Shown here piece after piece: positions 23,688-53,766 of a DNA stretch of 64,000 nt. Both the position numbers and the translations under genes were made by a program. The DNA is from Thermopolyspora flexuosa (GTDB taxonomy: Bacteria; Actinomycetota; Actinomycetes; Streptosporangiales; Streptosporangiaceae), in contig NZ_VFPQ01000001.1 of assembly GCF_006716785.1 (NCBI RefSeq), positions 1,736,001-1,800,000 of the forward strand. The letters run 5' to 3'. The notes beneath the pieces are model-generated. The model was not told where the DNA came from. It did not search any database and saw only the letters and a list, made by a program, of their open reading frames with translations. Each line of letters begins with the position of its first letter. Position 1 is the stretch's first letter.

Positions 23688-23709
23688 GGCCCCTCCGGGG
23701 CCCTTTTTT
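23688..23709 (+). terminator. Intrinsic terminator between rrf2 and MFS gene
   Basis: GGCCCC (23688-23693), loop TCC, GGGGCC (23697-23702), then C and six T residues (23704-23709). This is a classical rho-independent terminator, uncommon in such GC-rich genomes. It ends one base before the SD of the MFS gene. Confidence 0.7.
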
Positions 23710-29863: not shown

Positions 29864-30544
29864 TCACACGGTTTTTCCCGCGGATTTCACGTATCGCAGG
29901 CCCATTTCCCCGAGCGGCGGCCGGATGAATTTGGAGAAATAACCCAGCCGCGGCCCGGTGCGGCTTTCGAAGCGGAATCCGGCGGCGGTGGCGAGCCGGT
30001 GCAGCGACTGCGGGCTCACCCAGTCCGGGTCGGCGAACGTCTCGCCGACCACGAGCCGGCCGCCGGGCCGGATCACCCGGAACAGCTCGCGCATCGCGGC
30101 CGCCGGATCGTTCACCTCGCCGAGCACGGTGACCAGGAAGGCCCCGTCGAACACCTCGTCCCGGTACGGCAGGGCCTCCACCGACCCGCAGGCGGCGACG
30201 AGGTTCCGCGTGCGCAGCCGGCGCGCCGAGCGCAGCGTGTGGCGCAGCATGCGCGGCTGGATGTCGAGGATGTCGAGCTTGCCCTTCGGGCCCAGCCGGT
30301 CGGCCACGGACAGGCTGTAGTAGCCGTATCCCGGCCCGACCTCGAGGATGCGCTCGCCCGGCCGCGGGTCGAGCATCTCGAACAGGTGCCCGCGGGTGAT
30401 CAGCGGGCGGGGGATCTGGACGCGGAACCGCTGGGTGTAGGAGAGCGGGTCGCGGTGGCGCCGCCGCCACACCGTCCCGCCGATCGCGGCGCCGATGGCG
30501 ATGGCCGCCGTCGTCGCGGCGACCGCCCACGGACGTGCCTTCAT
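29864..30544 (-). CDS. Membrane-anchored class I SAM-dependent methyltransferase
   Basis: 226 aa; ATG 30544 with GGAGG about 8 nt upstream. An N-terminal transmembrane helix (about residues 5-26), then a Rossmann methyltransferase fold: motif I ILEVGPGYGYYSLSVADRLG, acidic loop LDILDIQPRML, DGAFLVTVLGEV and LFRVIRPGGRLVVGE. Related to UbiE/Methyltransf_11 enzymes. The C-terminus (RTGPRLGYFSKFIRPP) suggests lipid-like acceptors, but that is inference. It is convergent with the VOC gene and divergent from a secreted protein gene. Confidence 0.9.
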   Translation of the reverse strand: MKARPWAVAATTAAIAIGAAIGGTVWRRRHRDPLSYTQRFRVQIPRPLITRGHLFEMLDPRPGERILEVGPGYGYYSLSVADRLGPKGKLDILDIQPRMLRHTLRSARRLRTRNLVAACGSVEALPYRDEVFDGAFLVTVLGEVNDPAAAMRELFRVIRPGGRLVVGETFADPDWVSPQSLHRLATAAGFRFESRTGPRLGYFSKFIRPPLGEMGLRYVKSAGKTV

Positions 30545-30762
30545 GCGGATCCCTCCATCCCCGCGTTCCCGTGACCGTTCCTCCCTGGCTTCCCCCTGAC
30601 ACCAGCATCGAACCGGCCACCTTGAGCGGACAGTCGCGAAGGTCCCCGCCGCCTGGGCCGATGGTCCCCGGCCGCGCCGCGGCCCACGGCTCGGACGGGG
30701 CGGCCGGTCCCCGGCAGGCGGGCGGCAAGCCGCGTGCAAGCGGGCGCGCCCAATATGAGGCC

Positions 30763-31431
30763 ATGCGTAACCGATGGCTGCTGCGAGGCGCGGCCGGGAC
30801 GGCCGCGGCCGCCGCGATCCTCCTCACCTCCGCCCCGGCCATGGCGCACGGCGCGCCGCAGCGGCCGGCCACCACCTCCCAGACCGGCGTCGCGGCGCCG
30901 GCCACCGTGGCGAACACGCTGCTCAACGCCTGGCAGCGGCGCAACCGCGCCGCGGCCCTCCGGGTCGCCACGCCCGCGGTGGTGCGGGACCTGTTCACCT
31001 CTCCCCTGCGCTCCCCGGACGTGTTCCGCGGCTGCACCGGCAACGTCTGCCGGTTCGCGTACACGAGCGTGCGGACGCCGGGCGGGCTCAACGCCATCGT
31101 CATGGTGGTCTCCGGCAACAAGGTGACCAAGATCTACATGCCCCGGTTCATCACCAAGCCGGCGAACGCCGCCAAGCACCTGTTCGCCGCCTGGCGGGCA
31201 GGGGACCGCAACCGCGGGCTCGAGGTCGCCACCCCCGCCGCGGTGAACGCCCTGCGGTGGGTGCGCGGCCCCAAGGGCACCGTGCCGTACTCCTTCATGG
31301 GCTGCTCCAAGGCGCCCAAGCAGGAGTTCCGGTGCAGCTACTGGTACGAGGGCGGCGCGATGCACATGTGGGTCAACGGCTCGGCCGCGCGGGGCTACCA
31401 GGTCTACAAGATCACTTTCTTCGCCGACTGA
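30763..31431 (+). CDS. Secreted protein with two tandem about 90-residue repeats
   Basis: 222 aa from ATG 30763. Signal peptide of about 30 residues (RNRWLLRGAAGTAAAAAILLTSAPAMA, likely cleavage after AMA). The mature part holds two related modules: one with LLNAWQRRNRAAALRVATPAVVRDLF and a GCTGNVCRFAY loop, the other with LFAAWRAGDRNRGLEVATPAAVNALRW and a GCSKAPKQEFRCSYWY loop. Each loop has two Cys that could form a disulfide. Family not recognised. It lies directly upstream of the PHO-box/VTC region but is its own transcription unit. Confidence 0.8.
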   Translation: MRNRWLLRGAAGTAAAAAILLTSAPAMAHGAPQRPATTSQTGVAAPATVANTLLNAWQRRNRAAALRVATPAVVRDLFTSPLRSPDVFRGCTGNVCRFAYTSVRTPGGLNAIVMVVSGNKVTKIYMPRFITKPANAAKHLFAAWRAGDRNRGLEVATPAAVNALRWVRGPKGTVPYSFMGCSKAPKQEFRCSYWYEGGAMHMWVNGSAARGYQVYKITFFAD

Positions 31432-31464
31432 CGGCGGGTCAGCTGGTCTGCGGCGTGACGCCCG

Positions 31465-31519
31465 GTTCACCGGCCGTTCTCGCCGGATTCTGACCTGGTT
31501 CACATAAAGTTCTCAGGTT
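31465..31519 (+). promoter_or_regulatory. PHO box array upstream of the VTC operon
   Basis: Five contiguous 11-nt direct repeats in phase: GTTCACCGGCC (31465), GTTCTCGCCGG (31476), ATTCTGACCTG (31487), GTTCACATAAA (31498) and GTTCTCAGGTT (31509). This matches the PhoP direct-repeat unit of Streptomyces (GTTCACC followed by four less conserved bases). TAAAGT (31505-31510) within the array may be the -10 element. Confidence 0.75.
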
Positions 31520-31525
31520 CACCGG

Positions 31526-31561
31526 GTGGCATGTCCCTCGACGAAAGGAGGGACATGCCAC
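31526..31561 (+). promoter_or_regulatory. Perfect 14-bp hairpin over the VTC start region
   Basis: GTGGCATGTCCCTC (31526-31539) is exactly complementary to GAGGGACATGCCAC (31548-31561), with the 8-nt loop GACGAAAG. The SD (AGGAGG, 31546-31551) and ATG 31555 lie in the right arm and loop, and ATG 31531 in the left arm, so folding would hide both. Confidence 0.75.
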
Positions 31562-32493
31562 GTTTGTTTGGGCGCCGGCGGTCCGGCGGCGGCTCGGCGC
31601 CACCCGATCCCTCACCCCGCCCCGTCCTCCGTCCCGCCCGCGATCCGGCGAGCCGGGCCGACCCCGGCCACGCGCTCCGCGCCCCGAGCCCGCTGCACGC
31701 GTTCAACCGGTACGAGATCAAGTACCTCGTCGACATGTCCCGGGTGGACGCGCTGCGCGAGGAGCTCGAGCAGCGGCTCGACCGGGACGCCCACTGCGGC
31801 GAGGACGGCTACGGCGTGTGGAGCGTCTACTACGACACCCGCCACCTGCGGTTCTACTGGGAGAAGATCGAGGGACTGCGGTTCCGCCGCAAGCTGCGCA
31901 TCCGCCACTACGGCGACCGGTTCACCATCGACGCCGGCACGCCCGTCCACGTGGAGATCAAGCAGCGCGTCAACCGGGTCACGCAGAAGCGCCGGGTGCG
32001 CCTGCCGTACCGGGACGCGCTCGCGCTGTGCGACGGGCGGCGCATGGTCGACCACGACCCCGCCGACCGGGCGTTCCTCGAGGAGGTGCTCGACCTGGTC
32101 TGCCGGCTCGACCTGCGCGCCACCGCGATCACCGGCTACCAGCGGCACGCGTACCTCGGCCGCGGCGCCGAGGTGGGCCTGCGGGTCACCCTCGACCGGC
32201 GGGTCCGCGGCCGGGACCGCGACTTCCACCTCGGCGCGGACGCGGAGAACCGGTTCATCGTCCCGCCGCACAGGGCGGTGCTGGAGGTCAAGGCGAACGA
32301 GCGCGTGCCGTACTGGCTCAACGACCTCACCGCCAGGTGGAACCTCCAGGTCGTCCGCATCTCCAAGTACTGCCAGGCCGTGGAGGCGTACGGCCTGGCC
32401 CCCCGTTCGATCTTCCACGTCCCCGTGTCCGGCCCGGACGCCGGCGAGCGTCCCGGCCCGGCCGGCCCGATATCCGCCCCCCGGGAGGGCTGA
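31555..32493 (+). CDS. VTC-domain polyphosphate polymerase-like protein
   Basis: 312 aa from ATG 31555 with AGGAGG 3-4 nt upstream (ATG 31531 in-frame alternative). The tunnel-fold VTC catalytic domain shows FNRYEIKYLVD, WSVYYDTRHLRFYWEKIEGLRFRRKLRIRHY, VHVEIKQRVNRVTQKRRV and AVLEVKANERVPYW, with the basic and acidic residues that bind ATP, phosphate chain and metal. The eukaryotic Vtc4 domain makes polyphosphate from ATP; bacterial stand-alone VTC proteins are less understood. The N-terminal about 45 residues are Pro/Arg-rich and disordered. PHO boxes upstream support a phosphate-related role. Confidence 0.88.
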   Translation: MPRLFGRRRSGGGSAPPDPSPRPVLRPARDPASRADPGHALRAPSPLHAFNRYEIKYLVDMSRVDALREELEQRLDRDAHCGEDGYGVWSVYYDTRHLRFYWEKIEGLRFRRKLRIRHYGDRFTIDAGTPVHVEIKQRVNRVTQKRRVRLPYRDALALCDGRRMVDHDPADRAFLEEVLDLVCRLDLRATAITGYQRHAYLGRGAEVGLRVTLDRRVRGRDRDFHLGADAENRFIVPPHRAVLEVKANERVPYWLNDLTARWNLQVVRISKYCQAVEAYGLAPRSIFHVPVSGPDAGERPGPAGPISAPREG

Positions 32494-32496
32494 CCC

Positions 32497-33174
32497 GTGG
32501 ACTTCACCTTCGAGGACCTGTCCGGCACGTTCAGCGCCGCCGACATCGCCATCGCCATGGCCCTGTCGTTCACGCTCAGCGCGATGATCGGCTGGGTGTA
32601 CCGGGCCACCCACCGCCACGTGTCCTACAGCCAGTCGTACGTGCAGACGTTGGTCGTCATCGGCATGCTCATCGCATTGATCATGCTGGTGGTGGGGTCG
32701 AACATCGCCCGCGCGTTCGCGCTCGTCGGCGCGCTCTCGGTGGTCCGGTTCCGCAACGCCATCAAGGAGACCCGCGACGTCGGGTTCATCTTCCTCGTCA
32801 TGGGCGTCGGCATGGCCGTCGGCACCCGGTTCTACCTGCTCGCCGTCGTCGCCGCGGTGACGATCTCGCTGATCATCCTGATCATGCACCGGTTCGACTG
32901 GTTCCGGCTCAACGTGCGGCGCCAGGTGGTGAAGGTGCAGGTGCCCGCGGACGGGGACCACACCCACGTCATCCAGGACGTGCTGATCCGGTTCACCGAC
33001 GAGTTCGAGCTGGTGAGCATGGAGTCGATCCGCGGCGGCGCGCTGCTCGAGCTGATGTACACGGTGCGCATCAAGCCGGGCTCCGAGCCCGCCGACCTGA
33101 TCGCGGCCCTGCGCGAGCGCAACCACGGCCAGGGCGTCACCGTCCTCACCGGCTACGACCAGACCGATCTCTAG
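32497..33174 (+). CDS. DUF4956 membrane protein
   Basis: 225 aa from GTG 32497, 3 bp after the VTC stop. Four hydrophobic helices in the first about 130 residues (MALSFTLSAMIGWV; VVIGMLIALIMLVVG; ALVGALSVVRFRNAIKETRDVGFIFLVMGVGMAVG; LAVVAAVTISLIILIM), then a cytoplasmic ferredoxin-like domain (about 140-225). RFRNAIKETRDVGFIF is the hallmark of DUF4956. Its function is not established; it is usually encoded with VTC and CotH genes, suggesting a membrane complex that uses or exports polyphosphate. Confidence 0.9.
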   Translation: MDFTFEDLSGTFSAADIAIAMALSFTLSAMIGWVYRATHRHVSYSQSYVQTLVVIGMLIALIMLVVGSNIARAFALVGALSVVRFRNAIKETRDVGFIFLVMGVGMAVGTRFYLLAVVAAVTISLIILIMHRFDWFRLNVRRQVVKVQVPADGDHTHVIQDVLIRFTDEFELVSMESIRGGALLELMYTVRIKPGSEPADLIAALRERNHGQGVTVLTGYDQTDL

Positions 33175-33180
33175 GCCGCC

Positions 33181-34707
33181 ATGGAGCACGTCGGAAACGG
33201 TCCCCGGCGGCGGCTGCGGCACCGGATCCCGGTACGGCTGCGGCAGCACTGGCGCCTGGTCGCGCTGTGCACGGCGGTCCTCGGCGTGTGCGGCGGCGTG
33301 TTCGGCAGCGGCATGATCCGCCCGTACGCCGTCCGGGCCCCGGCCGCGGACGCCGCGGCGGGCGTCACCGTGGACGTCAGGGGCACCGTGGACCTGTTCG
33401 ACACCTCGGTGCCGCACGAGCTGACGCTCACCTTCGGCGACGCGGCGTACCGGGACATGCTGCAGGAGTACTTCGCCACCGGGGAGAAGAAGTACATCGA
33501 GGCCGACCTGGTCATCGACGGGACCCGGATCCCGAGCGTGGGCGTCCGGCTCAAGGGCAACTCCACGCTCAACGGCCTGACCTGGAACGGCATGGTCCGC
33601 ACCCGGCAGGGGGTGCGGCAGGGCGGCGGGCCGTTCGGCGGGTTCGGGGGCGGCGTGTTCGGCTCGTCGCTCAAGGGCGAGGAGCCGGAGAACCTGCCGT
33701 GGCTGATCAGCTTCGACGAGTTCGTGGCGGGCCGCCGCTACCAGGGACACTCCCAGATCGCGGTACGGCCGGCGCTCGGGCGGTCCGCGACGCTGCTCAA
33801 CGAGGCGCTCGCCATCGCGCTGGTCGGCGAGTCCGGCGAGCCCGGCCAGCGGTTCACCTACGGGTCGTTCTCGGTGAACGGCCGGACGTCGGGCCCGCGG
33901 CTGATCGTGGAGTACCTCGACGAGGGGTACGCCGAGCGGCTCGGCGACGGGGTGCTCTACAAGGCCCTCGCCTCCGGCGGCTTCGACTACAAGGGCGAGG
34001 ACCAGACCCGGTACACCACCGACTTCAAGCAGGTCAACGCGGTCGGGAGCGCCGACCTGCAGCCGGTGATCGACCTGATCAGGTGGGTGAACGACGCCTC
34101 GGACGAGGAGTTCGCGAGCGGGCTCGCCGACCGGCTCGACGTCGGGTCGTTCGCCCGCTACGTCGCGCTGCAGAACCTGCTGCTCAACTTCGACGACATG
34201 AGCGGGCCGGGACGCAACTACTACCTGTGGTACGACCGCGCCACGAGGCGGTTCCGGGTGATCAACTGGGACCTCAACCTCGCCTTCCAGGGCGACCCCG
34301 CGACCGGGCCGCACGACTCCGTCCGGCGGGGCTTCGGCCCGTGGCGGCCCCCGGACGGGCAGGGGAACGCCCGGACGCGGCCCGGTGAGCCGCCGCAGGG
34401 CGGGAACCGGACCCGGCGGGACCCGGTCGGCGGCGGTGGCGGACCGCGCATGGGCCACCCGCTGAAGGACCGGTTCCTCGCGTCGCGGGCGTTCACCGCG
34501 GTCTACGAGGAGCAGTACCGCGCCCTGTTCGCCGGGTTGTTCCGCGACGGGACCGCGGCCCGCCTGCTCGACGAGATCGTCGCGGCCTACAAGCGCAACG
34601 CCGGGGCCGACACCGCCACGGTCGACACCGAGGCCGCCTCGCTCCGCGAGCTGCTCCAGGCCCGGATCCGGGCGCTCGCCTCCGATCAGGTCGTTTCAGG
34701 AACCTAG
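33181..34707 (+). CDS. CotH-kinase family protein
   Basis: 508 aa from ATG 33181, 6 bp after DUF4956. Signal-anchor helix about residues 24-45, so the kinase domain is outside the membrane. CotH blocks: VRLKGNSTLNG, LLNFDDMSGPGRNYYLWYD and INWDLNLAFQGD (metal/ATP-binding Asp residues). Two Gly/Pro-rich insertions interrupt it (about 141-160, GGGPFGGFGGGVFG, and about 390-420 before GHPLKDRFL). CotH in Bacillus is an atypical protein kinase acting on spore-coat proteins; extracellular homologues could use an unusual phosphate donor. Its 3' end forms part of a 97-bp imperfect repeat. Confidence 0.88.
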   Translation: MEHVGNGPRRRLRHRIPVRLRQHWRLVALCTAVLGVCGGVFGSGMIRPYAVRAPAADAAAGVTVDVRGTVDLFDTSVPHELTLTFGDAAYRDMLQEYFATGEKKYIEADLVIDGTRIPSVGVRLKGNSTLNGLTWNGMVRTRQGVRQGGGPFGGFGGGVFGSSLKGEEPENLPWLISFDEFVAGRRYQGHSQIAVRPALGRSATLLNEALAIALVGESGEPGQRFTYGSFSVNGRTSGPRLIVEYLDEGYAERLGDGVLYKALASGGFDYKGEDQTRYTTDFKQVNAVGSADLQPVIDLIRWVNDASDEEFASGLADRLDVGSFARYVALQNLLLNFDDMSGPGRNYYLWYDRATRRFRVINWDLNLAFQGDPATGPHDSVRRGFGPWRPPDGQGNARTRPGEPPQGGNRTRRDPVGGGGGPRMGHPLKDRFLASRAFTAVYEEQYRALFAGLFRDGTAARLLDEIVAAYKRNAGADTATVDTEAASLRELLQARIRALASDQVVSGT

Positions 34708-53512: not shown

Positions 53513-53739
53513 CCCGGCATCCGGCCCGGCCGCATCCGGCCGTGCCGTGGCGTCCGGACGGCGGGTGAGCCGGGCCTGCCGTTTGCGGGCTCCGGCCGCG
53601 AAAGCCCGTGCCGGCGCCCCGCCGGGGCTGGCCGTACCAGGGCGGACGGTACGGCACGACGGGCCGCGCCCCGGGTAAAGCCGACCAAATCGGCGAGCCG
53701 TACGGGCCCCATCCGCCGCTTCGTCCTGGCATTCGTTGG

Positions 53740-53766
53740 GCCGCATGATTTGCGGCTTTTTTGTTT
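53740..53766 (+). terminator. Intrinsic terminator upstream of the XRE gene
   Basis: GCCGCA (53740-53745), loop TGATT, TGCGGC (53751-53756), then TTTTTTGTTTT. Rho-independent form; it probably ends the Rv1733c-like transcript. Confidence 0.65.

Follow-up and report, generated by a model that had tools for sequence, protein, structure and literature searches.

A perfect 14-bp hairpin over the start codon of a VTC-domain gene in Thermopolyspora flexuosa, a possible start-site gate against read-through RNA

In Thermopolyspora flexuosa, the start codon of a gene for a VTC-domain protein lies within a perfect 14-bp hairpin, which, we are somewhat inclined to think, acts as a start-site gate that shuts out read-through. 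Transcripts of the gene's own, PhoP-dependent promoter would start near position 31539, lack the 5' arm of the hairpin and be translated, whereas read-through RNA from the upstream gene would carry both arms and fold into a 14-bp stem that closes the start codon and half of the Shine-Dalgarno (SD) sequence. The stem and the T-rich tract behind it would probably also end transcription of the incoming RNA. The VTC-DUF4956-CotH operon would in this way be kept off unless phosphate starvation fires its own promoter. The fold, the comparative anatomy of the promoter and the energies were computed, and from these we infer the exact start, PhoP control, read-through, termination and the benefit to the cell. 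Positions refer to the window, by which we mean the whole stretch of 64,000 nucleotides that was analysed, and all features described lie on its forward (+) strand.

The VTC-domain (polyphosphate-type) gene is located at 31555..32493 (PF09359, E 3.9e-43) and its start codon, the ATG at 31555, is backed by an SD sequence and by the N-termini of orthologues. It is followed by a gene for a DUF4956 protein (32497..33174; PF16316, E 1.3e-19) and by a CotH-like gene (33181..34707; PF08757, E 2.1e-30), the third in what appears to be an operon. The co-oriented gene upstream (30763..31431), taken from the list of open reading frames with its start picked by eye, has no Pfam or NCBIfam match and is the candidate source of read-through RNA. 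The hairpin begins 94 nt past the stop codon of this gene, which ends at 31431. Among the 38 leaders compared below, 27 have a co-oriented histidine-kinase-like gene, recognized by a regular expression for GxGLGL, that ends 0-160 nt before the PHO pair; in the window, a gene of another, unassigned family replaces it upstream of the VTC gene. By title and the start of the abstract, none of the papers listed in literature searches dealt with the VTC/DUF4956/CotH set under PhoP control, and one of them names both DUF4956 and CotH (PMC7112168).

Just upstream of the hairpin, where the first-pass annotation had placed PHO boxes, there are indeed five in-phase 11-nt direct repeat units, GTTCACCGGCC, GTTCTCGCCGG, ATTCTGACCTG, GTTCACATAAA and GTTCTCAGGTT, at 31465..31519. 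The PHO box of Streptomyces has been described as an 11-nt unit with the consensus GTTCACC (PMC4415409), and the repeats at 31465-31519, being 11-nt units like GTTCACC, fit a putative PHO (PhoP) operator. The third unit is weak, the PHO pattern matches at 31465 and 31498, and counterparts of the last two units are present in orthologues. We infer that PhoP would control the VTC promoter. A scan of the genome with a pattern for two PHO units matched 22 places compared with 5 control matches and, because the control gave 5 matches, several of the 22 places are noise. The scan also matched before a gene for a PHO4-family phosphate permease (PF01384; locus L082, genome position C1:72800), and this is an argument for taking such repeats in the present genome to be PHO boxes. 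At that locus, AATAATT lies about 27-33 nt from the start of the first PHO unit.

The hairpin is formed by a 5' arm, GTGGCATGTCCCTC (31526..31539), an 8-nt loop, GACGAAAG (31540..31547), and a 3' arm, GAGGGACATGCCAC (31548..31561), that contains the end of the SD sequence, the start codon and the next codons. The arms are exactly complementary, with 14 of 14 Watson-Crick pairs, as had been claimed from the sequence at first sight. The SD sequence AAAGGAGG (31544..31551), in a region that is largely conserved in the aligned leaders, is divided evenly between the loop and the 3' arm. The ATG at 31555 is within the 3' arm and a second, in-frame ATG at 31531 is within the 5' arm. The earlier description of a hairpin over the SD sequence and both start codons is therefore right about position, but the ATG at 31531 is very probably part of the promoter and not a start codon. 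Directly 3' of the stem is a terminator-like T-rich tract, GTTTGTTT (31562..31569). The energy of the stem is -28.9 kcal/mol at 37 C, and the fold of the 116-nt leader has a z of -4.17, with none of 200 shuffles as low. No other perfect inverted repeat of at least 14 bp with a loop of 3-20 nt occurs in the 64-kb window. Simulations that assume first-order (Markov) composition gave 0.08 (25 runs) or 0.10 (4 hits in 40 runs) such repeats per window, which extrapolates to roughly 7-9 per 5.77-Mb genome. The first impression that a random match is improbable agrees with the expectation of about 0.1 per window, and the genome-wide figure tempers the rarity. A perfect 14-bp repeat is thus rare, yet one could arise by chance.

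We compared the predicted folding of RNAs with different 5' ends. With 5' ends at 31538, 31539, 31540, 31541 or 31543, the probability of the stem was 0.00 and opening the region from the SD sequence to the ATG cost 2.2-5.1 kcal/mol, whereas with 5' ends at 31432, 31500 or 31520 the complete stem formed and opening cost 20.8-22.7 kcal/mol. A separate run gave 23.9 kcal/mol for the long RNA and 5.3 for the short RNA. When the upstream part was shuffled 60 times the mean opening energy was 9.0 kcal/mol; the window has a z of 5.5 and none of the 60 shuffles reached its value. The long RNA had a closed start codon and an SD sequence that was half open (mean unpaired 0.50), as the loop takes up four of the SD bases. 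With half of the SD sequence in the loop, the translational block rests on the start codon. In these folds the hairpin closes the ribosome site in upstream-initiated RNA, and its formation is predicted to be possible only in RNA that reads in from upstream. The translational switch that had been suggested for this site should therefore not apply to the gene's own PHO transcript, which is predicted to lack the 5' arm; such a block may act on upstream read-through RNA alone.

The hairpin also resembles a terminator. Between 30300 and 31700 the hairpin with GTTTGTTT was the sole terminator-like site (1 found; shuffle mean 0.5), and its stem is by far the longest, with 14 pairs compared with 8 for the next, among the 18 terminator-like sites listed for 1-60000. 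The stretches with such sites had 4, 9 and 5 of them compared with 3.7, 4.3 and 3.1 in shuffles; with counts ranging from about the same as in shuffles to twice as many, a single match says little. In Streptomyces, U-rich intrinsic terminators of the HS-U-rich class have been defined by a stem energy below -23 kcal/mol and by three or more U among the 8 bases that follow (PMC8269248). With -28.9 kcal/mol and 6 U in 8 bases, the hairpin would count among the U-rich intrinsic terminators if judged by that work's limits for energy and number of U. It is like those terminators in its strong stem, its U tract and a loop within 4-8 nt, and unlike them in that it spans the start of a gene and lies 94 nt past the upstream stop codon. 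More terminator-like sites with strong T tracts were seen in the window at 53738-53758 and 23688-23702.

Orthologous leaders were obtained from protein searches and from a DNA pattern. The protein searches, in tallies that count weak or partial matches too, were positive for 7 of the 60 relatives and for 15 of the 80 family genomes searched (the own genome counted in both); two genera had 3 matching genomes out of 16 and 24 out of 54. The one congener searched, which is 78 % complete, had no VTC match. The DNA pattern, made up of PHO units, a fixed spacing and ATRT, occurred at 31 places in 30 of 341 family genomes, own included, with 0 control matches. Thirty of these places were retrieved and all are before VTC genes, 28 as judged by a motif and two (L074 and L075) from reading the translation. 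The leader comparison started with 65 loci, of which 59 were anchored, and resulted in 38 distinct leaders including that of the window: 28 with a protein-found locus (window included) and 10 from the DNA pattern alone. The ten pattern-derived leaders have the 33-nt spacing built in and so are no test of spacing, and the leaders are mutually related, so that counts are not independent events. Loci at which the PHO expression was unmatched (L018, L019, L020, L024 and L045) were left out, although L018 and L019 nevertheless carry GTTCACACAC by eye. L040 was left out with the PHO expression alone unmatched and elsewhere shows 33 nt and 5 of 14 pairs, and L031 is anchored at 33 nt in the set of 38. 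The unanchored Streptomyces and Asanoa loci (L003-L005) and the partial or distant matches (L012-L014, L021-L023 and L047-L049) are outside the comparison.

These leaders point to a promoter in the 5' arm. Measured from where the last PHO pair begins, an AT[AG][TC] or [TC]TAT element begins 33 nt away in 27 of the 28 protein-found leaders and 32 nt away in the other one, and a strict AT[AG]T is at 33 nt in 23 of the 28. The first search for this AT element spanned 29-34 nt from the PHO pair; the recount was made without that limit and without the 10 pattern leaders, and it found two further such elements in all between the PHO pair and the start codons of the 28. By contrast, the distance from the AT element to the start codon in the 38 leaders is 8 nt (4 leaders), 24 nt (12), 25 nt (4), 26 nt (14) or 29, 35, 36 and 39 nt (1 each). 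An element whose distance is fixed relative to the activator site but varies relative to the start codon (8-39 nt) is typical of a core promoter, and the region of the 5' arm thus seems to act as promoter and not as leader RNA. In alignment A1, made from 27 of the 38 leaders, every row has T at columns 30 and 35, and 90 % or more have A at column 34. This suggests a -10 hexamer TxxxAT, which in the window is TGGCAT at 31527..31532 and in orthologues takes forms such as TCAGAT, TCGGAT, TCACAT and TCGTAT. TGGCAT is a poor match to the -10 consensus, and a sigma-70 scan of 30300-31700 found no promoter.

Six bases after TGGCAT lead to a predicted start at 31539. Four orthologous loci, L028 and L042 from the protein searches and L051 and L052, both of one genus, from the pattern, have an ATG 8 nt past the -10-like element and no SD sequence. 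Their ATG is at the expected +1 for a TxxxAT -10 element, the window equivalent of which is 31539, and they seem to have become leaderless by losing all of the 5' leader. Judging from the orthologues, the predicted transcription start zone is 31537..31541, with 31539-31541 as the best guess. The 5' arm of the hairpin thus most probably corresponds to the -10 element plus discriminator of the VTC promoter. The PHO-driven mRNA should start near 31539 and so lack the 5' arm, in which case the stem cannot fold. The ATG at 31531 was rejected as a start codon. In 12 of the 38 leaders the AT element precedes the start by 24 nt, but in 14 it does so by 26 nt, which is out of frame; at this place L008 and L037 have ATG GGC TGA by eye.

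Many orthologues, including L009, L015, L025, L029, L032, L036 and others, carry an inverted repeat, TGTCAG-N7-CTGACA, around the -10 element. Where its halves align in A1 (columns 28-33 with 41-46), 80.7 % of cells are paired compared with 21.5-55.6 % in slid versions, and both sides have changed at 4 pairs, a number reached by 15 of 500 shuffles. Other measures are unexceptional and two slid versions have more changed cells. The repeat is partly lost in the window, where 3 of 6 pairs are left.

The comparison with orthologous leaders, which the first-pass annotation had put forward as a check, went against conservation of the stem, and this is one of the two outcomes that the first pass had named together as refuting its reading. 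All 14 pairs are present here, whereas the equivalent arms of the 37 other leaders form 3-7 of them (mean 5.4). On A1 the 10 inner pairs showed covariation no higher than that of shuffles, 342 of 500 of which reached the score, and 59.0 % of cells were paired compared with a shuffle mean of 57.8 (20 of 500 reach 59.0) and 66.7 in one slid version. A conserved hairpin in the same register was rejected on these grounds, pairing elsewhere being at most 7 of 14 with no covariation above shuffles. As far as these genomes indicate, the stem is particular to this lineage. Opening energies of read-through RNA in the 37 other leaders were near those of shuffles, with a mean z of 0.40 and 19 of 37 above 0; z exceeded 2 in L036, L033, L032, L055 and L026 and was below -2 in L077. 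With that mean over 37 leaders, selection for a read-through block across the family is unsupported. L033 has an 11-bp perfect stem, CCTCCTGTCAC-N7-GTGACAGGAGG (arms found by eye), in another register over the SD sequence of its VTC orthologue, with the 5' arm upstream of the predicted start and the 3' arm over the SD sequence.

The strongest rival to the gate, and a serious one to which we give roughly a one-in-three standing, is a neutral accident. The -10 region and the SD/start region would have become complementary either through drift or in a single template switch during replication, with the 5' arm being made as a copy of the 3' arm, and the stem would have no role, since the PHO mRNA never has both arms. 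Such a stem is expected to lack conservation and covariation in orthologous leaders, as was found, and the 7-9 repeats extrapolated for a genome of this size leave room for it. There is also a built-in seed, in that the ATGT of the promoter pairs with the ACAT before and in the start codon, with 20 to 27 of the 27 aligned leaders agreeing per column (columns 34-37). Of the 38 leaders (window included), 16 have GAGGGACATG at their end, whereas the window's 5' arm is unlike the others, as would be expected had the 3' arm been the one copied, and template switching has been described as making perfect stems in one event (PMC8794818). Against an accident are the T-rich tract right after the stem, since tracts as T-rich as GTTTGTTT follow 0.33 % of + strand positions in the window and, in a small sample, none of 4 simulated long stems had one, and the independent-looking 11-bp perfect stem over the SD sequence in L033. 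A point against the gate is that the histidine-kinase-like gene close upstream in 27 of the 38 leaders would seem to need equal insulation, yet the other leaders lack this stem and their opening energies are near those of shuffles. The T-rich tract tips the balance slightly towards function and the lack of stem conservation tips it back.

We consider it very improbable that the stem is an RNA switch or thermometer within the gene's own leader, as had first been suggested: it does cover the ATG and part of the SD sequence, but its 5' arm is predicted promoter DNA, it is not conserved, four orthologues appear to be without any 5' leader, it is too stable for a thermometer (in RNA that begins at 31501 the start codon is less than 3 % unpaired at temperatures up to 80 C), and 30400-33000 has no relevant Rfam family, the sole listed match being to a microRNA model, with a score far short of the gathering threshold and at a place off the hairpin. 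Equally improbable is a DNA operator, an idea also suggested earlier and taken here as a site for a dimeric repressor over the -10 element and start codon; the palindrome spans the core promoter and a different, shorter inverted repeat around the -10 element is common in orthologues, but the palindrome itself is not conserved, and a search of the 5.77-Mb genome for its inner 11-bp arms at the same spacing, allowing as many as 3 mismatches, turned up no further site.

The start-site gate has known counterparts. In Bacillus subtilis, a large hairpin has been proposed to block translation of spoIIG read-through RNA at sigG (PMC5942855). The hairpin described here would be like it in that it cannot form in RNA from the gene's own promoter; sigG, as reported in that source, has 20 or more pairs and a known start, and here there are 14 pairs, a PHO promoter, a T-rich tract and a predicted start. 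The late promoter of the phage T4 gene for I-TevI is placed so that late RNA is without the sequence for the structure that blocks the ribosome-binding site in early RNA (PMC2988022). Here too, the position of the promoter would strip the gene's own RNA of a blocking fold. The I-TevI case, as presented in that paper, concerns a phage, temporal control and similar layouts in several endonuclease genes, whereas the present case is chromosomal, with presumed phosphate control and a stem found in one species only. By analogy with sigG and I-TevI, the gating trick would already be known and its place here would be new.

A bolder form of the idea, which we regard as unlikely though worth stating, is that the 36-bp palindrome is three things in one, namely core promoter, terminator and ribosome block for incoming RNA, and ribosome site, with L033 as a second invention in the family. 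If that were true, only RNA born within the hairpin would be both finished and translated. Even a striking, perfect hairpin across a start codon is not necessarily a switch within the leader, since the orthologues suggest that half of this one is promoter. The set of leaders offers a testable promoter map for PHO-box VTC operons, including those that are apparently leaderless. If the gate fails, the site is a good example of a strong hairpin without an RNA role; if it works, it would be a compact way of insulating a stress operon from its neighbour, of the kind reported for sigG and the T4 endonuclease genes.
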